Part shown: piece by piece, positions 3,770 to 21,501 of the stretch | Layout of the letters: every line of letters begins with the position of its first letter | Numbering within the stretch: the first letter of the stretch is position 1 | Source: Streptomyces caniferus | GTDB lineage: Bacteria > Actinomycetota > Actinomycetes > Streptomycetales > Streptomycetaceae | DNA: 64,000 nucleotides | Direction: 5' to 3' | NCBI RefSeq assembly: GCF_009811555.1 | Contig: NZ_BLIN01000003.1 | Span: forward strand, 992,001-1,056,000 | Notes under the pieces: model-generated | The model's database searches: none | Told to the model about the DNA's origin: nothing | What the model saw: the letters and a program-made list of their open reading frames with translations, nothing else | Made by a program: the position numbers and the translations under genes

Positions 3770-5050
3770 ATGAGCAGCACGCTGGGCCCCCGCGCCGGCG
3801 GCACCTCCGCGGAAGGACCGGACGACCCCGACGCTTTCTCCGTGTTCGGAGAGGACCTCAGGACGACCGGGGACCGGCAGCACGTCCTGTCGTCCGCACC
3901 CCGGGACACCGGCACCCGAGCCGCCCCGGGAGGCGGCAGTGCGGAACCGGCTGCCGTCGGTGGCCGTACGGACCCGGGCGCGGCCGACAGCGGAACGGAA
4001 CCCGGCACAGCCGACAGCGTCTTCGGCCACGTCCAAAGGCGCCCGGCCCACCGGGCCCGGCGCAAGCGGCCGCTGCGGCGGACGGCCCTGGCGCTGCTCG
4101 CCGGACTGGTGGCCCTCCTCGCAGGCACATATGCCTGGGCCGACGGCGACCTCAACAACACGGTCGATCTCGGCACGCCGGGGCGGCGCCACCCGACCGG
4201 ACAGGGCACCAACTACCTCCTCGTCGGGTCCGACAGCCGCGATGGTCTCACCGACCGGGAGAAACAGGAGCTGCACACCGGATCGGCCGGCGGCCGGCGT
4301 ACGGACTCGATGATCCTGCTGCACACCGGCGCCGGCGGCACCTCGATGGTGAGCCTGCCGCGCGACTCGTGGCTGACCATCCCCGCCTACACGAGCCCCA
4401 TGACCGGCAAGCGTCACGGCGCGGCCAAGAACAAGCTGAATGCCGCGTTCGCGCTCGGGGGCCCCAAGATGCTCGTGAACACGATCGAGCACAACACCGG
4501 CCTGACGATCGACCACTACGTGGAGGTCGGCTTCGCGGGCTTCGTCAATCTCGTCGACGCGGTCGGCGGTGTCCCGATGTGCCTCGACCGCAACCTCAAG
4601 GACGAGAAGTCGGGCGCCGATTTCCGGAAGGGCTGCCATACCCTCGATGGCCGGGCGGCGCTCGCCTTCGTCCGCCAGCGCCACCAAGAGGCCCACGGCG
4701 ACCTGGGCCGCACCCGTAACCAGCAGCGGTTCCTCTCGGCCCTCGCCCACCGGGCCGCGGCGCCGGGGACGCTGATCAACCCGTTCGCGGTGTACTCGGC
4801 CCTCGACGCCGGACTGGACACGCTCCTCGTCGACCGGGACACCGGCCTGCTGGACATCGCCTCGATGTTCCAGGCGATCCGCGGGGTCACCGGCGGGCAC
4901 GGCAAGCAGGTCAACGTCCCTGTGGCCCGGCTCGGCTTTCCCACCTCCAAGGGCAGCGCCGTGCTCTGGGACAGGGCGCGGGCGAGGCAGCTGTTCAGCG
5001 ATCTCCATGACGACCGGACGGTGCGTACCCCGGGAAGGGGGAACCGGTGA
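3770..5050 (+). CDS. LytR-CpsA-Psr (LCP) family cell-wall ligase
   Basis: A 426-residue protein: a long Gly/Ala/Pro-rich cytoplasmic N-terminus with a basic patch (RARRKRPLRR), one membrane segment at about 105-124, then an extracellular LCP domain from about 147. Visible LCP features are NYLLVGSDSR, the Arg/Asp cluster GRRTDSM, the strand SLPRDSWL, and GRAALAFVRQRH near the lipid-binding pocket. LCP proteins move glycans from a polyprenyl carrier to peptidoglycan or related polymers. ATG at 3770 has GAGGAG ten bases upstream. It follows the GT2 synthase by 18 bases, so the two are likely co-transcribed and the LCP protein probably attaches the polymer made by its neighbour. Confidence 0.9.
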   Translation: MSSTLGPRAGGTSAEGPDDPDAFSVFGEDLRTTGDRQHVLSSAPRDTGTRAAPGGGSAEPAAVGGRTDPGAADSGTEPGTADSVFGHVQRRPAHRARRKRPLRRTALALLAGLVALLAGTYAWADGDLNNTVDLGTPGRRHPTGQGTNYLLVGSDSRDGLTDREKQELHTGSAGGRRTDSMILLHTGAGGTSMVSLPRDSWLTIPAYTSPMTGKRHGAAKNKLNAAFALGGPKMLVNTIEHNTGLTIDHYVEVGFAGFVNLVDAVGGVPMCLDRNLKDEKSGADFRKGCHTLDGRAALAFVRQRHQEAHGDLGRTRNQQRFLSALAHRAAAPGTLINPFAVYSALDAGLDTLLVDRDTGLLDIASMFQAIRGVTGGHGKQVNVPVARLGFPTSKGSAVLWDRARARQLFSDLHDDRTVRTPGRGNR

Positions 5051-5226
5051 GATCCGGCCGGTGGAGCGCGGATGAGTCGGCGTCCACGGACAGCGGCGGC
5101 AGGCCCAGGCGCTCACGCCCCGTGTCGTAGAGGTCCCCGCGGACGCCGCCCGCCTCCCGGCCGGCGGCGTCAGTGCCGGTCCGGGCCCCCTGGGCGCGGA
5201 CCGGCGCAGGCGGGTCGGCGATCCCG

Positions 5227-5740
5227 TCAGTGGCCGTGGTCGTGACCGGCACCGTGGCCACCGCCGTGGTCGCCGTGGCCGACGATCGTCCACGGACGCA
5301 TCAGGACGTCGTCCTCGTGTTCGAGAAGGTGGCAGTGGTGGACGTATGTCGCCGGGAGCACGGCGCCGGTTCGGAAGCGACGCGATCGGATCCGTCGGCG
5401 GGCTGAATTCGCCCGTGATGATCCTGGCCACCGTCTCCGGATACGACTTGACGGTGTCCTTGTAGGACTGGGCCTCGTCCGGGTCCGGCGGAATCGGCGG
5501 GCCGGTGAAATAGTGCGCCAACACCGGCTTGTCCTCCGGTCTGCGGCCACCGCTGATCCACTTTTCGTAATCCTCCTGGTAGCCGGCCGCGTCGATCGGC
5601 TGCCTGTTCAACACCTGGAAGTTGACGAGGTGGACGTGCATCGGGTGGGCGCCGTGGTTGGGGTTGATGTACTCCCAGATCTCGGTCGAGCCCGCCTTGA
5701 TGAAGTCCTGGGAAGGCTCCATGAACGGCACCGCGACTCT
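5227..5740 (-). pseudogene. 3' remnant of a multicopper oxidase (CotA/bilirubin-oxidase type)
   Basis: Only the C-terminal cupredoxin domain remains. One frame carries HGAHPMHVHLVNFQVLNR (H-x-H copper ligands) and continues to about 5365. The reading then shifts one base into a second frame carrying YVHHCHLLEHEDDVLMRP, the type 1/type 3 copper motif HCHxxxHxxxxM, and a His/Gly-rich tail ending at 5227. The N-terminal two thirds are absent, and the homology stops just short of an ISAs1-type end at 5776. Both the truncation and the frameshift show it is dead unless the frameshift is a sequencing error. Confidence 0.8.
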
Positions 5741-11145: not shown

Positions 11146-11477
11146 GTGAGGGCCACCCCCATGGTCACCAACCACAAGGCTGCACGGACGCACGGCATCT
11201 TGGACGCCCGCGTGGAAGCTCGCGTGCCGTGCTTCGCGGACAAGGGCTACCGGGGCGCCGGCGGCACCATCCGCCTACCGTATTGGGGCCGCTGGGTGAC
11301 GCTCTCCGCAGGCCGGCAAGCCGTCAACCGCTCACACCCCACGCTCCGCGCGCTCGTCGAGCGGGCCATGGCCACCCTCAAGTCATGGCGACTCTGCGCA
11401 AGCTGCGATGCTCCGCCAACGGCATCACCACCCTCGTCCAAGCCACCCTCACCCTGCACCTGGCCTACGCCAGCTGA
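11146..11477 (+). pseudogene. 3' remnant of an IS5-type (DDE) transposase
   Basis: The first frame reads CFADKGYRGAGGTIRLPYWG and NRSHPTLRALVERAMATLKSW, the end of a DDE-superfamily transposase with its last acidic residue. A slip near 11385 moves to a second frame reading LRKLRCSANGITTLVQATL and a stop at 11477. The 5' two thirds are missing. Confidence 0.7.
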
Positions 11478-11577
11478 GGCTGGAGAAAGCTCGATGACCA
11501 CGGCGGCAGGAGGGCCAGTGCCACGCGCGGCACGGCTGACGGGGGCGTGACTTTGGGAGACAACTCCCAGGAGGGCG

Positions 11578-13077: not shown

Positions 13078-13738
13078 GCGCCGACTCCAGCACTGCCTGC
13101 CGGGGGCGGTCAACACAATGAGGGCACTGGCCGGCCCTCGCCTCGGTCCGGCCCTGGCTCGGCCCATGATCCGCCGGACGAGCCCTAGATGAAGGGGCCG
13201 ATGGGTATGCCGATCGCGAGCATGGGATCGCGAGGGCCCGCGATTTCGCCCCGCACATCCATCCGCTCCGACGGCGAACGTAGCCCGGGAGCGGTGAGTC
13301 GGAGTGCCGACAGGTATGGGTGGCCAGGAGCAGGTAGGCGTTGGGGGTGCGGGGCCCGCGGCGGCTGCGCCCGTGCCGGCAGTTGGTGCGGGGGCCCTCC
13401 GAGAGCGAAGTGTTCCCGCCGACTGAAACGGCCCGCACGGCAGTAAGCCGGCGCCACCTACCCCAGTGGGCCCACTAGCAGACGAAGAAACCTGCTCGCA
13501 GGAATTGCAGCCAAATCTCACGCTCTCGAAGGGCGACGCAGAGACGACCCTTCATCCCGCACCGCATCCTGAAACGATCGGTAACCCGCCCCTCACGGCG
13601 CACAATCATCAACGTTTAGCAAGTGTCGTGGAAACTATGGCTCGATGTATCGCTCGTGATCTTTCACACGTTTTCTCACAGTTATGAACAACAAGTAGTA
13701 GGAATGAAAGGGCAAGTTCCCTACTCGAGGAGTCATCG
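13078..13738. other. Spacer holding the likely promoter of the peptide cassette
   Basis: No gene seen. From about 13570 the sequence becomes unusually AT-rich for this window (runs such as ATCAACGTTTAGCAAG and TTTCACACGTTTTCTCAC). It ends in an imperfect inverted repeat (AGTAGGAA and TTCCCTACT) just before the ribosome binding site at 13727. This fits a promoter and 5' leader for the gene at 13739, but I cannot fix the -10 and -35 boxes. Confidence 0.45.
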
Positions 13739-13879
13739 ATGGCCAAGGTTTCCGCAGCACCCAAGAGCGAGTCTCACGCGGCCCGTCAGCCGAAGCGGAT
13801 CGGATTCTCCGTGGAGACGGTGAAGACGGCCCAGGTCAAGAGCGTGCCGAACCTCGAAGTCGACCAGAAGGACGTGTAA
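13739..13879 (+). CDS. Putative RiPP-like precursor peptide, 46 residues
   Basis: A small gene with a very good ribosome binding site (GAGGAG, 6 bases before ATG). The peptide starts MAKVSAAPKSESHAARQPKR, a polar, basic, leader-like half. It continues IGFSVETVKTAQVKSV and ends PNLEVDQKDV, with no Cys, Trp or Tyr. It is followed by a hairpin and then by genes for a JmjC oxygenase, a glycosyltransferase-like protein and an MFS exporter, all on the same strand. That arrangement is how ribosomal-peptide pathways are built: a short substrate, an attenuator, then enzymes and export. Candidate targets for hydroxylation are the Lys, Asp and Asn residues of the C-terminal half. I do not recognise the peptide family. 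It could instead be a small regulatory or structural protein. Confidence 0.65.
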   Translation: MAKVSAAPKSESHAARQPKRIGFSVETVKTAQVKSVPNLEVDQKDV

Positions 13880-13884
13880 GAGCA

Positions 13885-13934
13885 GGGGTCAAGTCACTGT
13901 CCTGACCCGCCCGGTGGCTCCTGGAGTCACCGGG
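13885..13934 (+). terminator. Double hairpin after the precursor gene, probable attenuator
   Basis: Two inverted repeats follow the peptide stop: GGGTCA/TGACCC (13886-13908) and a stronger one, CCCGGTG/CACCGGG (13910-13934), with an inner CTCC/GGAG pairing. Such a structure between a small peptide gene and its enzyme genes usually sets high peptide and low enzyme expression. Confidence 0.6.
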
Positions 13935-13960
13935 CACTCCCCTTAACCGTGAGGATTGGC

Positions 13961-15148
13961 GTGTTCGATCTCGAATCCCTGCTTGACCCGATGACCCTCG
14001 ATCAATTTCTCCGCGAAAACTGGACAACCCGGGGCGTCGTCTTACGCGGGCAGGACCGGGACCGATTCCGTTCGCTCTTCTCTTGGGATCAGCTCAACCA
14101 TCTTCTCAATTTCCACCGTCTCCGGTTCGGCGAAGAAATCCGCCTGGCGGCGATAGGCAGAAAGATCTCCAATCAGCCCGAGACACCGGAAGAGTGGATC
14201 AGGCACTGCCAGGACGGCTACACCCTCATCATCAATCAGTTGCAGAGGCGGCTGCCCGCGATCGCTGAACTGGCGACGGCGATCGAGCGTGCGATCGGCC
14301 ACCGGAGTCAGGTCAACATGTACTGCTCCTGGCCTGAGCAGCAGGGGTTCGACCAGCACCACGACGACCATGAGGTCTTCATCCTGCAGATCGAGGGGAC
14401 GAAGCGATGGGTCGTCTCCGAGGAGACGTACAAATACCCGCTCGACAAATACAACAACGTCTCCGTCGACACAGGCGAACCCAAGGGGCTCCCGTACATC
14501 GAGACCGAACTCCATCCGGGGGACGTGCTCTACATTCCACGGGGCCACTGGCACTACGCGGTAGCCGGCGACGAACCCTCGTTGCACCTGACGCTGGGCG
14601 TGACGTGCCGCACCGGCGTCTACTGGCTGAAGTGGCTCGCGGACGAGCTGATGGACGAGGAGGAATGGCGGCGCAATCTCCCGCCCGTCATCGGAGGTGA
14701 CACGGCCCAGCTCGCCGACCATGTCCGCGGCCTGATGGGCAGGCTCGCCACGCTGGCCGACGACGAGCAGTTGGTGGAGGCGTACCTCGCCAATCATCTG
14801 ACCACCCAGGACAGCCGTCACCGCGAGGTCAGCCTCCCGAGCCAGTCCGGGTTCCACCCCCTCTCCACGAAGCCCGACACACGTCTGCGGCAAGCACAGT
14901 TCAACCCCGTCAAGGTTGACTACGATGCCGAGGCCGAACAGCACCGTATCCAGTTCGGCACGAGGAAGATCACGCTCGACGGCGCTCCCGCAGAACTCAT
15001 CGACAATCTTTTCCGCCACGAGTCGTTCACCCTCGGGGAAGCCATCGGCTGGGCCCCCGGATTCGACCCGGCCGAAGACATCGCCCCCCTGCTACGGCTG
15101 CTGGTCGAGGAAGGGATCCTTCTGGAGGACAATCCTCCGTCGGCGTGA
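13961..15148 (+). CDS. JmjC/cupin-like 2-oxoglutarate oxygenase (ROX-type)
   Basis: A 395-residue protein. The cupin core carries an iron-binding H-x-D in QHHDDHEVFILQIEGTKRW and the distal His in GDVLYIPRGHWHYAVAGDE, followed by SLHLTLGV. This matches the YcfD/ROXA family of Fe(II)/2-oxoglutarate hydroxylases that act on protein side chains. A C-terminal winged-helix-like segment (ITLDGAPAELIDNLF through LLRLLVEEGILLE) is also typical of ROX proteins. GTG at 13961 is chosen because GAGGA lies six bases upstream; GTG 13949 has no site. Its likely substrate is the 46-residue peptide encoded just upstream. The family assignment is solid; the peptide substrate is an inference from position. Confidence 0.85.
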   Translation: MFDLESLLDPMTLDQFLRENWTTRGVVLRGQDRDRFRSLFSWDQLNHLLNFHRLRFGEEIRLAAIGRKISNQPETPEEWIRHCQDGYTLIINQLQRRLPAIAELATAIERAIGHRSQVNMYCSWPEQQGFDQHHDDHEVFILQIEGTKRWVVSEETYKYPLDKYNNVSVDTGEPKGLPYIETELHPGDVLYIPRGHWHYAVAGDEPSLHLTLGVTCRTGVYWLKWLADELMDEEEWRRNLPPVIGGDTAQLADHVRGLMGRLATLADDEQLVEAYLANHLTTQDSRHREVSLPSQSGFHPLSTKPDTRLRQAQFNPVKVDYDAEAEQHRIQFGTRKITLDGAPAELIDNLFRHESFTLGEAIGWAPGFDPAEDIAPLLRLLVEEGILLEDNPPSA

Positions 15149-15219
15149 GCACCGCCAAAATTCCGGCCCGGCCCGCGGCACGACGGGCAGGCGTTCCATG
15201 TTTCCCGGGCCTGTACCAC

Positions 15220-15250
15220 GGGGTCAGTTCCTCTCGAAGGTCCTGACCCC
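15220..15250 (+). promoter_or_regulatory. Inverted repeat between oxygenase and glycosyltransferase genes
   Basis: GGGGTCAG and CTGACCCC form a perfect 8-base stem with a 15-base loop. The same GGGTCA...TGACCC pairing occurs after the precursor gene at 13886-13908, so this may be a shared regulatory or processing hairpin. Confidence 0.45.
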
Positions 15251-15282
15251 GCAGGGCGCTCACCACCGACGGAGAAAACTCG

Positions 15283-16353
15283 ATGAAGATCGGCCTGATC
15301 GAGCTCAGCGCACACAGCGAGGTCCTCGACAGTCTCATAAGGCAAGCCATCGATGTCGGGGCGAGCCCTACCGTCTACACCAACCCGTTCTGCGCCGAAT
15401 CCTCGGAGGCCGCCGCATACGCGGCGGTCGAGTGGCAGGTGTGTCCCCCGGGTCTGCCGTACGCGGAATTCCTGGAAAACTGCAAGTCCTCGATCGGCTC
15501 ACAGGATCACCTGTTCATCATCACCCCGGTCGATTCCCTGTGCGGCTCGCTCTCCGATGCGAGCGCGACGTCAGCCACCTGGCACTGCCTGGTGCACAAT
15601 CTCAATACGTTCAACTCGTCGGACGACAATCGGCCGAGCGCTGCCATCGCGAAGCTCGTTCTCGACGGCGCGACGGGTGTCCTTCTCCCGGATCTCCGGC
15701 TCAGGAAATCCGGTGACCCTCTGCGGACGCACGCAATCAACATCGCCTATCCGCAGCATCCGCCCACGGAGTTCGTGAGGGACGAGGTGCGGTGCTGTAT
15801 CCCGGGGAGAATGTATTCCGGCAGGGACCACGCCGAGGTTCTGTCCGCACTGGAAATCGCCGCCCCACGCCTGACGAAGCGACTGCGAGTCGAATTTCTC
15901 GGAGAGCACTCCACCGAGGAGACCAAGGCTGCCGTAGAAGCGGCGAGGAAGACGGTCGTGCCCTCGGTCGAACTGCGAGATCACCCGGGTTACGTGGCGC
16001 AAGAGGAGTTCGACCGGACGCTGGCAGAGGCTGACTTCCTCATTCTTCCGGTCTCCGAGTACCTCACCCGTAACGGCATCATCGAGACCCGCGGCCAGAC
16101 CTGTGTCACGGGCAACATCAATGACATGGTCCGGTTCGGACTTCCCTCGCTCATGCCGGCCTTCTATCCGTTGAGCAGCCATATCGAGGGGATGACGGCA
16201 CGGTACGACGGCATTCGGTCCCTGGCGGATCTGATCGTCACCTGGGTGAACAGCGATGAGTTCACCCGCAGGAAACGGGCGGCGGCGCCCGGCCTGGAGG
16301 CCTACCGGGCCGAGTGTCTGTCGGCCATGCGCGAGCAACTGGCCCGCTGCTAG
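15283..16353 (+). CDS. GT-B-fold glycosyltransferase-like protein
   Basis: A 356-residue protein, start ATG 15283 with GGAG eight bases upstream. The C-terminal half resembles the nucleotide-sugar domain of GT4 enzymes: CCIPGRMYSGRDHAEVLSAL at the start of the domain, LRVEFLGE, then VELRDHPGYVAQEEFDRTLAEADFLILP-type spacing, and a Gly/Pro-rich segment near FGLPSLMP. The N-terminal half (MKIGLIELSAH, TVYTNPF) is more divergent. It is probably a glycosyltransferase acting on the peptide, plausibly on a hydroxyl installed by the JmjC enzyme. That order is known from collagen, where lysine is hydroxylated and then glycosylated. Family call moderate; substrate inferred only. Confidence 0.6.
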   Translation: MKIGLIELSAHSEVLDSLIRQAIDVGASPTVYTNPFCAESSEAAAYAAVEWQVCPPGLPYAEFLENCKSSIGSQDHLFIITPVDSLCGSLSDASATSATWHCLVHNLNTFNSSDDNRPSAAIAKLVLDGATGVLLPDLRLRKSGDPLRTHAINIAYPQHPPTEFVRDEVRCCIPGRMYSGRDHAEVLSALEIAAPRLTKRLRVEFLGEHSTEETKAAVEAARKTVVPSVELRDHPGYVAQEEFDRTLAEADFLILPVSEYLTRNGIIETRGQTCVTGNINDMVRFGLPSLMPAFYPLSSHIEGMTARYDGIRSLADLIVTWVNSDEFTRRKRAAAPGLEAYRAECLSAMREQLARC

Positions 16354-16730
16354 CGGCTCGTGAGGGAAGAACCCATGGTGTCGGCACCGCGCGAGGGCGC
16401 GGGACGCGGACAGTCCTCGTACGGCCTCTGCGGCAGCCCCACCGCTCCTACCGACCCGGCATCCGTTGTGGCTCGCCAAGTGCGCCAAGGCCCGACGGGC
16501 GCACCAGTAGATCACCGGAGCAGGCGCAACCGGAGAAGGCCTTGCGGCCTCCTGGCTCGGCGTCAGCTCTCCGCCGGGAAAGGGCCCCGGTTCCGGGTCC
16601 GGCCGCGAGAAACGCCGGCCAGAACCACAGTGAGGCCCCGGGACGTCCCCGGAAAAGCAGGTATCCGAACCCGATGCGAAGGACAGCACGTGTACCACCA
16701 GGACACCAACGGCACCCGGCAGAGTCGCAT
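16354..16730 (+). other. Spacer with a doubtful ORF coupled to the MFS gene
   Basis: A frame from ATG 16375 (or GTG 16360) runs to a stop at 16734, overlapping the MFS start as ATGA, which is a coupling-type overlap. However its 120 residues are Arg-rich, use AGA, AGG, GTA and ATA codons foreign to this genome, and match nothing I know. More likely it is an open stretch by chance, or decayed sequence. Confidence 0.3.
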
Positions 16731-17957
16731 ATGACGATCGATATGTTCCGGGGCCCGGTACGTTTCCTGACGATCGCCAGTTTCGTCACCACCGTCGGCA
16801 GCGGCCTCTATCTTGCCGGCAGCATGCTGTTCTTCACCCGCGTTGTCGGGCTGAGTGTCGCGGGTGTGAGCACCGGCCTGGCCATCGCGACAGTCGTCGG
16901 CATCCTGTCGGGCCTCCCCCTCGGTGCCGTTGCCGATCGCGTCGGGCCCCGGGGACTGTACGTCGCCACCCAAGGTGTCCAGGCGACGGCGATGTTCCTG
17001 TTCCCGATGACGCACTCCTTCGCCGTCTTTCTCACGCTGGTCACCGTCGCCGCCATCGGCCAACGCGGCGCCCAAGCGGTCGGCGGCGCCCTGATCGCAC
17101 GGATCAGCGAGCCCGGAGAACGTACCCGCATCCGCAGTCATCTCCGAGCGGTCACCAACCTCGGGATGGGCATCGGCGCCGCCGCGGCCGGCGTCGCGCT
17201 CCAACTCGACTCGACGACGGGCTACACGCTTCTGATCCTGGCGAACGGGCTGAGTTTCCTCGCGGCGGCAGGACTGCTGCTCAAGATCCCGTCCGTGGAG
17301 CCGGTGCCACGCCCGCCGGGCGCGCGGCGCATGGAGGCCATGCGGGACAGACCGTACCTCGCCCTGTCGCTGTTGTGCGGGGTCATCGCGTTCCAGTACG
17401 ACGTGGTGTCCCTGGTCCTGCCGCTCTGGCTGGTGTCACACACCACGGCGCCCCGGTGGTGGCTTTCCGCACTGCTGGTGACGAACATGGCAGTGGTCGT
17501 GCTGTTCCAGGTCAGGGCAACCCGGTGGGTGAAAGGCCCGTTGCCCGCTTCCACCGCGCTCCGTGGAGCGGGATTTCTGTCGCTCGCCGGCTGTGTCGTG
17601 CTCGCCCTCGCCTCAGGGGTTTCCGCCCCCGTCGCCGCGACCCTGCTGCTCGTCGGCGTGCTCCTGCTGTCATCGGGCGAACTCGGCCTGGCCGCGGGGG
17701 CATTCGAAATCAGCTTCGCGCTGGCCCCGGAACACGCCCAGGGGCAGTACCAGGGAGCCTTCAACCTGGCCGATGGCGTGGTGCGTGCGGCGGCTCCGGT
17801 CGTGCTCACCGCACTCTGCCTCCAGTGGGGCAAGCCCGGCTGGGTGGTACTGGGCGTCGTCCTCGCGCTCTGCGGCCTCGCCGCCCGGCCGCTCACCCGG
17901 TGGGCATTGCGTACCCGGCCGCTCCCGGCGCCGGAAGCACCGGTTCTCGTCGGCTGA
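16731..17957 (+). CDS. Major facilitator superfamily transporter
   Basis: A 408-residue protein with about 12 hydrophobic helices. The loop 2-3 region contains GLPLGAVADRVGPRGLYV, the MFS motif A (G-x-x-x-D-R-x-G-x-R). ARISEPGERTRIRSHLRAVTN follows helix 4. A central hydrophilic loop (RPPGARRMEAMRDRPYL) separates the halves. Start ATG 16731 has a weak site; ATG 16743 is an alternative. As the last gene of the peptide cassette it probably exports the modified product or gives self-protection; general drug efflux is the alternative. Confidence 0.88.
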   Translation: MTIDMFRGPVRFLTIASFVTTVGSGLYLAGSMLFFTRVVGLSVAGVSTGLAIATVVGILSGLPLGAVADRVGPRGLYVATQGVQATAMFLFPMTHSFAVFLTLVTVAAIGQRGAQAVGGALIARISEPGERTRIRSHLRAVTNLGMGIGAAAAGVALQLDSTTGYTLLILANGLSFLAAAGLLLKIPSVEPVPRPPGARRMEAMRDRPYLALSLLCGVIAFQYDVVSLVLPLWLVSHTTAPRWWLSALLVTNMAVVVLFQVRATRWVKGPLPASTALRGAGFLSLAGCVVLALASGVSAPVAATLLLVGVLLLSSGELGLAAGAFEISFALAPEHAQGQYQGAFNLADGVVRAAAPVVLTALCLQWGKPGWVVLGVVLALCGLAARPLTRWALRTRPLPAPEAPVLVG

Positions 17958-18053
17958 GGTCTCCCTTAGGGGCCTCCAGCTGGTCGAAGCATGTATGGGC
18001 CACCGCGAAAAACTGGTGGACAACGTCCTGGACCCTCCACGACGATCCGCGCT

Positions 18054-19439: not shown

Positions 19440-19982
19440 TTACCGCCCGACCGGGTTGAGGTAGGTGGCCGGGTGGGTGGCGCCGTCCTGCTTGAGGATC
19501 TGGCCGCCGAAGGGCCACTTCAGGGTGAAGTGATCCGTCTCGTTCGGCGGTGTGACCAGGAACGTCGCCGGAACGAACTTCTCCTTCTGCGGCGTGGACT
19601 TGGCCACCGGGAGAAGGGTGATGCTGAAGTCCACCGTGACCCCCGGCTCCAGGACCATCTTGTCGGGCTTGGTGGCGGAGCGCGCCAGCGACCAGGTGCC
19701 GTCGGTCCCCTGAGCGCCGATCATGTCGACACCGGCGAAGCCGGACAGGGTGCAGGTGCGCTTGCTCTGGTTGGTGAACCAGATGTACGCCTGGGTCTGC
19801 TTGTCGGTCTGCTCCATCTCCGGTCTCGCGTCCTCCCCCGTGGCGAAGCCGGCCTTCAGGTCGGCGGTGTGGCAGCGGGTGGGCTCGGCCTTGGCCGGAG
19901 CGGCCGAGGCCGGGATGGCGGTAGCGACAGTGCCGGCGACGACGACGGCCGCAACGGCAGCGGCGGTGAGCTTGCTCTTCAT
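19440..19982 (-). CDS. Secreted DUF4232-type protein
   Basis: A 180-residue exported protein. The signal peptide is MKSKLTAAAVAAVVVAGTVA, with a likely cleavage after PASA-A. The mature part has two Cys residues that may pair (TRCHTADLKAGF and KRTCTLSGFAGV), the spacing seen in DUF4232 domains. The latter ends with a beta-rich segment (FLVTPPNETDHF, LKWPFGGQILKQ). ATG 19982 is chosen because it starts the signal peptide. Function of the family is unknown; these are abundant small secreted proteins of Streptomyces. Confidence 0.8.
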   Translation of the reverse strand: MKSKLTAAAVAAVVVAGTVATAIPASAAPAKAEPTRCHTADLKAGFATGEDARPEMEQTDKQTQAYIWFTNQSKRTCTLSGFAGVDMIGAQGTDGTWSLARSATKPDKMVLEPGVTVDFSITLLPVAKSTPQKEKFVPATFLVTPPNETDHFTLKWPFGGQILKQDGATHPATYLNPVGR

Positions 19983-20261
19983 TTCGGGGTTCCCCACTCG
20001 AAGAAGAATCGGCACGCGAGGTCAGTGCGCGCCTACGCACCTGAAGATGCGCAATGCCCGTGGCAGGTTCGGTACGCCGGGAGCCTTTTCCGGACAATCA
20101 GGGTGCGGGCCGTCGCGGCGTCGCAGGGAGGACACCACAACGGCCGCGACCTCGCTCGTCGTCCGGCCCGACAAGGCGCGACCGATGGCAGCACGTGCGG
20201 CCCGAGCACCATGCTGAGCCGCACGCCGCTCGGTCCGCCCCTCATCAAGGCGTCGTCCCCG

Positions 20262-20637: not shown

Positions 20638-21501
20638 ACCGTGTCCTATGTGGTGAGGCGGTCGTTGGCTTCGGTATGGGGCGGGGTACGTGGAGTTGGA
20701 TTGTTCCGGACGGACTGTGGGAGATCGCGAAGCCGCTGATCCCTCCGTCGAGAGTGCGGCCGCAGGGCGGCGGAACGCAGGACACGCCTGATGAGACGCT
20801 GTTCGCGGCCATCGTCTACGTCCTGGTCAGCGGCTGCGCCTGGCGCCAACTTCCGCCCTGCTTCGGCATATCGAAGTCGACCGCCCACCGCCGGTTCCTG
20901 ATCTGGTCGAGAGCCGGCGTCTGGGGCCGCCTGCACGAAGCCGTGCTGCACCGCCTCGACGACACCGGCCTGATCGACGTCACCCGCGTTGTCCTCGACA
21001 CCGCCCATGTCAGGGCTAAAAAGGGGGTGAACACACAGGTCCGAGCCCCGTGGACCGGGGCAAGCCGGGCTCCAAGATGCACATCCTGTCGGACGCGAAC
21101 GGGCTGCCCCTCCTCGTCGGCATCTCGGCCGGCAACACCCACGACAGCGAAGGGCTGAAGCCCATGGTGGCGGGTCACCAAACGAGACACGACCCCCACC
21201 GAGGCCGGTACCTCAAGCCCCAGCGCCTTCACGCCGACAAGGCGTATGACCGCGCCGATCTGCGGAAATGGCTGCGCGGCAAGCGGATCGGAGTGCGCAT
21301 CGCCCGCAAAGGCATCGAATCCAGCGAACGCTTAGGGCGCCGGAGGTGGGTGATCGAGCGCACGATGTCTTGGCTGTCCGGCTACCGCAGACTCAGCCCC
21401 CGCTACGAGCGCCATTCCCACAACTACCTGGCCTTTCTCGGACTCGCCGCCGCCCTTTGCTGCTACAAGCGCCTCGTCCGCCTCACCACATAGGACACGG
21501 T
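20638..21501 (+). mobile_element. 864-bp IS5-family insertion sequence, copy A
   Basis: The ends are perfect 24-base inverted repeats beginning ACCGTGTCCTATGTGGTGAG. The element is flanked by the direct repeat CTTAG (20633-20637 and 21502-21506), the target duplication. Two near-identical 864-bp copies lie at 35039 (inverted) and 37276. Near identity means recent movement. Confidence 0.93.
20676..21493 (+). CDS. IS5-family transposase of copy A, two frames joined by -1 frameshift
   Basis: The first frame (20676-21158) carries the DUF4096-type N-terminus, WRQLPPCFGISKSTAHRRF, and the first catalytic Asp in VVLDTAHVRAKKG. The second frame (to 21493) carries DRGKPGSKMHIL, DKAYD, and RRWVIERTMSWLSGYRR with the catalytic Glu. 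A run of five A and five G at 21018-21027 allows a -1 slip that joins them as AKKGGEHTGPSP. This is the usual way such elements make full transposase. Confidence 0.88.

Follow-up and report, generated by a model that had tools for sequence, protein, structure and literature searches.

Does a gene for a 46-residue peptide, followed by genes for a JmjC oxygenase, a glycosyltransferase (GT)-like protein, and a major facilitator superfamily (MFS) transporter, mark a biosynthetic pathway for a ribosomally synthesized and post-translationally modified peptide (RiPP)? These four open reading frames (ORFs), all on the forward strand (Table 1), form a cassette within 64,000 nt of Streptomyces caniferus DNA (assembly GCF_009811555.1, contig NZ_BLIN01000003.1, positions 992,001 to 1,056,000, forward strand), a stretch referred to here as the window. 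An earlier sequence-only reading had proposed a RiPP-like pathway of hydroxylation, glycosylation, and export. Our analysis partly supports that proposal; its RiPP-like reading holds and gains in breadth, as the peptide-JmjC family is wider than the earlier reading supposed, because related precursors also precede JmjC genes in cyanobacteria. The arrangement by which RiPP loci are recognized, a conserved short precursor gene co-located with a modification enzyme, is present. On balance, we favor a new RiPP-like family in which the JmjC enzyme hydroxylates Asp or Asn in the peptide C terminus, with probable subsequent glycosylation and export in the Streptomyces branch.

The four-gene block is conserved as a unit in four Streptomyces loci of 17 kb each (L005 to L008), and its flanks are not. 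When window positions 4 to 28 kb were compared by blastn with eight loci, these four matched from 13555-13728 to 16347-16368 and again from 16548-16685 to 17959-17966. Outside the cassette, only isolated matches were retrieved (L005, 20247-21475, weak and in a transposon-like region; L006, 24583-25556, 90%). Two 4-kb loci (L086 and L087) carry the same genes, with the precursor start missing in L087, and L003 spans the precursor through the GT-like gene. The sequence-only reading had staked its case on conservation of the small ORF beside JmjC and GT homologues; the peptide gene was found upstream of both in all seven loci covering this region, six from Streptomyces or the same genus (the window's included) and one from Paraburkholderia. 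The MFS gene lies downstream of the GT-like gene in 6/6 Streptomyces loci that reach it, and the GT branch (seven loci) forms one clade (support, 99/99).

In Paraburkholderia ribeironis (L009), the precursor matches at 67% over 27 aa, the JmjC protein at 68%, and the GT-like protein at 58%. Transposase genes at 13-498 (PF01609) and 4691-5509 (PF13610) bracket the precursor-JmjC-GT genes on this contig, which suggests that the three genes arrived by horizontal transfer. A methyltransferase gene on the opposite strand also lies between the two transposase genes. Among the relatives of the host, the cassette is by genome counts rare: a JmjC orthologue (E ≤ 1e-40) occurs in 3/293 genomes of the order, one of them merely 34% identical, and the GT-like gene in 3/392 genomes of the genus, the host's own genome being included in both counts.

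A protein search with the 46-aa peptide returned 15 entries, its own included, and the precursors gave no match of weight in NCBIfam, Pfam, or PHROGs. In the alignment of these 15 sequences, residues 18 to 45 are almost invariant and residues 1 to 17 variable. The ratio of nonsynonymous to synonymous polymorphism (pN/pS) among seven Streptomyces or same-genus sequences is 0.36 for the whole gene, 0.71 for residues 1 to 17, and 0.031 for residues 18 to 46, indicating purifying selection on the latter part. The Paraburkholderia precursor shares the core (it ends PNLEVDQKDD), and the window's own genome holds a single precursor copy. The near-invariance of the core suggests one product with a fixed function. 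Residues 18 to 29 align across precursors of different phyla, and the PNLEVDQKDV core occupies the position of the D-rich tail in cyanobacterial precursors. In a joined model of precursor and JmjC protein, only residues 18 to 29 of the precursor exceed a predicted local distance difference test (pLDDT) value of 50, with a strand at 22 to 27.

To place the cassette among its relatives, 84 JmjC loci were used, namely, the best 80 of 113 relatives in genome contigs (4 Streptomyces, 1 Paraburkholderia, and the remainder cyanobacterial records) plus L001 to L004; the frequencies that follow refer to these. A precursor hidden Markov model (HMM), seeded with 37 upstream ORFs chosen by motif and position, matched 52/84 loci at E ≤ 1e-3, 15 of them beyond the seeds. 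Matches were always upstream of the JmjC gene, on its strand, and within 1.6 kb, with no other match among 12,153 ORFs; two weaker matches (E = 0.044 and 0.047) raise the count to 54. The cyanobacterial precursors have a common SKIQxEVKxI-like segment followed by D-rich, often repeated tails (e.g., MSKQINGSTVKLSRASKIQVEVKEIAKHATAKNTSSHLNVDADGSDVTNE in L012 and the tails LNTDADGGDLNTDADGGDLTT in L029), and in an Okeania locus (L048), NFDADGGDR occurs three times in succession. Tandem tail repeats of this kind are typical of multi-core RiPP precursors.

A sister clade yielded no HMM match, and all 17 of its cyanobacterial loci have an upstream ORF with a hydrophobic N terminus, a segment such as SPIEVEVVNL, and then a D/N-repeat tail (DVDQNQ, DQNQDQNQ, or NSNSNS). 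Loci L046, L060, L063, L077, and L083 are among those whose upstream ORF combines a signal-like N terminus with an (I/V)EVEVVNL-type segment and extended D/N repeats. In L010 and L051, the upstream ORFs are ∼102 aa long, start with MIISDL(S/N)YLEV, and contain a Gly-Gly motif and DVD-rich repeats, with two copies in L051. When such divergent D/N-rich ORFs are counted, which were retrieved by regex and composition searches designed after the first examples and accepted by eye in 19 loci (17 + 2), a candidate substrate is present in 73/84 loci. As a control that ignores position, 5,519 ORFs of 40 to 260 aa were screened for any run of 20 residues in which D and N make up 40% or more; of the 46 ORFs that qualified, 35 are located upstream of the JmjC gene, on its strand and no more than 1.6 kb away. 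In 43 loci, a protein of a single blastp cluster is encoded downstream of the JmjC gene in the same orientation, and all but one of these loci (42/43) have a precursor as well. This cluster is Suc_Fer-like (PF06999 in 3/3 members scanned), and its gene is found directly or shortly 3' of the JmjC gene, as at 9217-10236 in L012.

The JmjC protein matches PF08007 (E = 1.9e-27), and its best solved relatives, the protein and peptide hydroxylases NO66, MINA53, and YcfD, share its fold. The residues for Fe and 2-oxoglutarate (2OG) binding (H137, D139, H202, and K152, counting from 13949) are conserved in 84/84 homologues, which upholds the claim of a ribosomal oxygenase (ROX)-type enzyme with an intact H-x-D...H motif. 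The order of secondary structures in the model reveals a C-terminal winged-helix domain of the ROX type, and the full-length alignment with NO66, MINA53, and YcfD runs to residue 464-469. Because close homologues are 395 aa long and begin MFDLESLL, translation more likely starts at GTG 13961, which is preceded by GAGGA, than at 13949. The genome encodes one further JmjC match (36% identical), and a plasmid search with the JmjC protein returned 148 records, every one below 60% identity. In a third bacterial lineage, Pigmentibacter ruber (P0014) encodes a JmjC protein 65% identical to that of the window.

The GT-like protein has 28 homologues, making a set of 29 proteins with itself, two of which are named glycosyl transferase or glycosyltransferase by UniRef. 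It gave no match of weight in Pfam, NCBIfam, PHROGs, or PDB sequences, and a Pfam scan of 19 members returned only stray matches (E = 0.011 or worse). Foldseek with its AlphaFold2 model (pLDDT 56.2) retrieved 30 matches at E ≤ 0.001, the best being mostly GT-B enzymes with template modeling (TM) scores of ∼0.2 (Foldseek E = 5e-5). These matches include UDP-GlcNAc 2-epimerases, trehalose transferase, and SenB, together with polysialyltransferase, N-glycosyltransferase, and LmbT, again at TM ∼0.2. The product is thus probably GT-B-like on the basis of modeling; of the earlier assignment, the ORF stands, and the GT identity comes down to a weak fold resemblance with no family match. The MFS transporter gene was recovered as described (Table 1).

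In the pathway that we propose, the 46-aa peptide would be made in excess over the enzymes, given its strong ribosome binding site, which we also find, and the hairpins before the next gene. Residues 18 to 29 would form a beta strand, as modeled, and dock on the JmjC protein, probably on its C-terminal winged-helix domain, in the manner of RiPP recognition element (RRE)-leader pairs. The docked segment would then hold NLEVDQKD at the active site. There, an Asp or Asn residue (most likely D42, possibly also N38 or D45) would be hydroxylated on its side chain, probably at the beta carbon. Asp/Asn beta-hydroxylation is suggested by the enzyme family and the shared D/N-rich tails, and because such tails are common to precursors across groups, Asp/Asn is favored over Lys, which the sequence-only reading had also considered. 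In Streptomyces and Paraburkholderia, the GT-B-like enzyme would probably add a sugar to the new hydroxyl, so that hydroxylation followed by glycosylation is plausible in the GT branch. The MFS protein would probably export the product in Streptomyces, and the variable N terminus would be removed by a protease encoded outside the cassette. More tentatively, the PF08007 JmjC branch may constitute a RiPP class of its own, in which an Asp/Asn hydroxylase receives D/N-rich tails, often repeated in tandem (LNTDADGGD, NFDADGGDR, DVDQNQ, NSNSNS, or NLEVDQKD), by way of a beta-strand recognition segment ((S)xIxVEVxxI/L). Its partners would be branch specific (GT and MFS in Streptomyces and a Suc_Fer-like Fe-S protein in cyanobacteria), with poly-hydroxyaspartate metal-binding peptides or glycosylated derivatives as possible products.

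Several observations weigh against this proposal. In a sequence comparison aimed at kinship with RREs, the C-terminal profile of the JmjC protein aligned by hhalign with 23 PqqD-domain rows at 6.7% probability; for comparison, the values were 1.5% for the same profile against 18 HTH_5 rows (one empty), 0.1% for the JmjC core against PqqD, and 49.8% for HTH_5 against PqqD. The core is nearly invariant, in contrast to the cores of many RiPP families, and the gene may instead encode a small protein or a peptide of fixed function. The GT-like protein belongs to no recognizable family and is poorly modeled, and the 7.1-kb Paraburkholderia contig has no MFS gene. The usual partner in cyanobacterial loci is the Suc_Fer-like protein, not a GT, and hydroxylation followed by glycosylation would therefore be confined at most to the Streptomyces/Paraburkholderia branch. 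No candidate substrate was found in 11/84 loci (L002, L004, L011, L015, L019, L028, L037, L045, L055, L073, and L082), of which L045 is cut off upstream; four substrate-less loci (Rhizonema/Scytonema) sit inside the precursor-bearing clade. Finally, Pfam and NCBIfam scans found no protease gene among the four cassette genes, a gap that had been recognized earlier. The same scans agree with the claim that lanthionine, lasso, thiopeptide, and radical S-adenosylmethionine (rSAM) enzymes are absent as far as the four conserved genes are concerned, the rest of the window not having been scanned for them.

The rival that survives best, although we regard it as unlikely, holds that the JmjC enzyme performs an oxidative cross-link, desaturation, or cleavage and that the GT-like protein either targets a different group or is a Rossmann enzyme other than a GT. 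The weak GT identity (a model of pLDDT 56, TM ∼0.2) is in keeping with this, and the Suc_Fer partner in cyanobacteria suggests additional redox steps. A 2025 study by Xia et al., to judge from its title, reportedly concerns 2OG-dioxygenase macrocyclization in RiPPs. Backbone cleavage by HEXXH 2OG enzymes is also known in RiPPs, according to the available part of PMC12636437. Against this rival, the closest solved relatives of the JmjC protein are hydroxylases.

Less probable still is that the JmjC enzyme, or some protein complex, has the peptide as a small subunit with a regulatory or chaperone role, the substrate of the enzyme being another protein, for example, a ribosomal one, as for YcfD, NO66, and MINA53. 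Such a role would accord with the ROX kinship of the enzyme and the near-invariant C terminus of the peptide, but ribosomal modification would be odd given the patchy distribution, both GT (within the genus) and JmjC (order-wide) being as rare as counted above. The neighboring GT and MFS genes and the Okeania tails, which recur as many as three times, likewise speak against this role.

RNA folding reproduces both stems of the double hairpin reported after the peptide gene: the first spans ∼13886-13908, and the second (13909-13935) pairs over 12 bp without a mismatch around a loop of 3 nt. The segment has a minimum free energy of −34.1 kcal/mol, with 0/200 shuffles as good, and the corresponding segments of L005 to L009 fold with z scores of −3.5 to −6.0. 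An intrinsic terminator was rejected, as there is no T-run and none of four terminator-like sites falls there. The region has no match in Rfam, and conservation at the RNA level is unproved because RNAalifold on six hairpin-region sequences gave 20 pairs with zero compensatory changes. That the small ORF is a mere upstream leader for attenuation, its product being functionless, is highly improbable despite the conserved hairpins directly 3' of its stop codon, being contradicted by the pN/pS of 0.03 for residues 18 to 46, a sign of amino acid conservation, and disfavored by the cross-phylum precursor HMM matches.

Table 1. Positions of the cassette features in the window
Feature	Position	Strand	Basis
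Ribosome binding site GAGGAG of the precursor gene	13727..13732	+	Sequence; seven bases 5' of ATG
Precursor peptide gene, 46 aa	13739..13879	+	14 homologues besides the window's own; pN/pS
Putative recognition segment, residues 18-29 (PKRIGFSVETVK)	13790..13825	+	Aligns with SKIQ(V/I)EVKEI of cyanobacterial precursors; joined model
Putative core, residues 37-46 (PNLEVDQKDV)	13847..13876	+	Near-invariant in 15 aligned precursors
Two hairpins, precursor-JmjC intergenic	13886..13935	+	RNA folding, z −3.0
ROX-type JmjC oxygenase (alternative start 13949)	13961..15148	+	PF08007; solved relatives NO66, MINA53, YcfD
3' part of JmjC gene	14909..15127	+	Secondary structure in model; hhalign with PqqD 6.7%
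GT-B-like protein, probable glycosyltransferase	15283..16353	+	28 homologues besides itself; low-confidence GT-B resemblance
MFS transporter, probable exporter	16731..17957	+	PF07690, E 1.8e-22; first ATG of conserved part 16731

Transposase remnants flank the surroundings of the cassette at 11146-11550 (PF13359, just below the cutoff, E = 2.9e-5) and 20676-21158 (PF13340, E = 2e-22). A DUF4232 protein is encoded at 19440-20015 on the reverse strand (PF14016, E = 4.1e-17) and is apparently unrelated to the cassette.

With respect to known systems, the JmjC protein is ∼20 to 26% identical over the aligned part to the ribosomal oxygenases NO66, MINA53, and YcfD and, unlike them, adjoins its own small peptide gene and is patchily distributed. 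In sublancin-like glycocins, a GT encoded beside the precursor glycosylates Cys, Ser, or Thr directly; the window likewise has a GT-like gene near the precursor, but its precursor lacks Cys. In the available parts of PMC12707348 and PMC12257519, the JmjC/cupin enzymes BipG, BpmG, and PbsQ are described as hydroxylating Orn in biphenomycin-type RiPPs, which resemble the present case in having a JmjC/cupin-like oxygenase that acts on a RiPP precursor and an MFS gene in the cluster. By those descriptions, the JmjC/cupin enzyme there is a late tailoring enzyme beside a multinuclear nonheme iron-dependent oxidative enzyme (MNIO), a B12 rSAM enzyme, and an arginase; the window cassette is set apart by a different precursor and by JmjC as its sole known modification enzyme type. 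RRE domains fused to JmjC PF08007 occur in fish and algae, with the closest bacterial homologues in RiPP-like contexts (Bregman et al., PMC12710340); the available parts of that report mention no precursor or recognition motif and no GT, MFS, or Suc_Fer partner. The accessible portions of PMC12636437 and PMC13060819 treat other oxidative RiPP enzymes, and those of PMC10783134 mention RiPP clusters of Synechococcus that contain cupin and GT genes. A literature search, with most subscription journals outside its reach, found no description of a peptide-JmjC-GT or peptide-JmjC-Suc_Fer arrangement.

If the proposal is correct, a JmjC oxygenase would define a family of peptides that extends over Actinomycetota, Cyanobacteriota, and one species of Pseudomonadota. 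The ROX type, familiar from its action on ribosomal proteins, would then also have a branch devoted to biosynthesis, with peptide substrates of its own. The recognition motif could be used to mine further members. The fold of human NO66 and MINA53 would be tied to leader-guided peptide modification, and the hydroxylated, possibly glycosylated Asp-rich peptides would be candidates for metal binders or signals.

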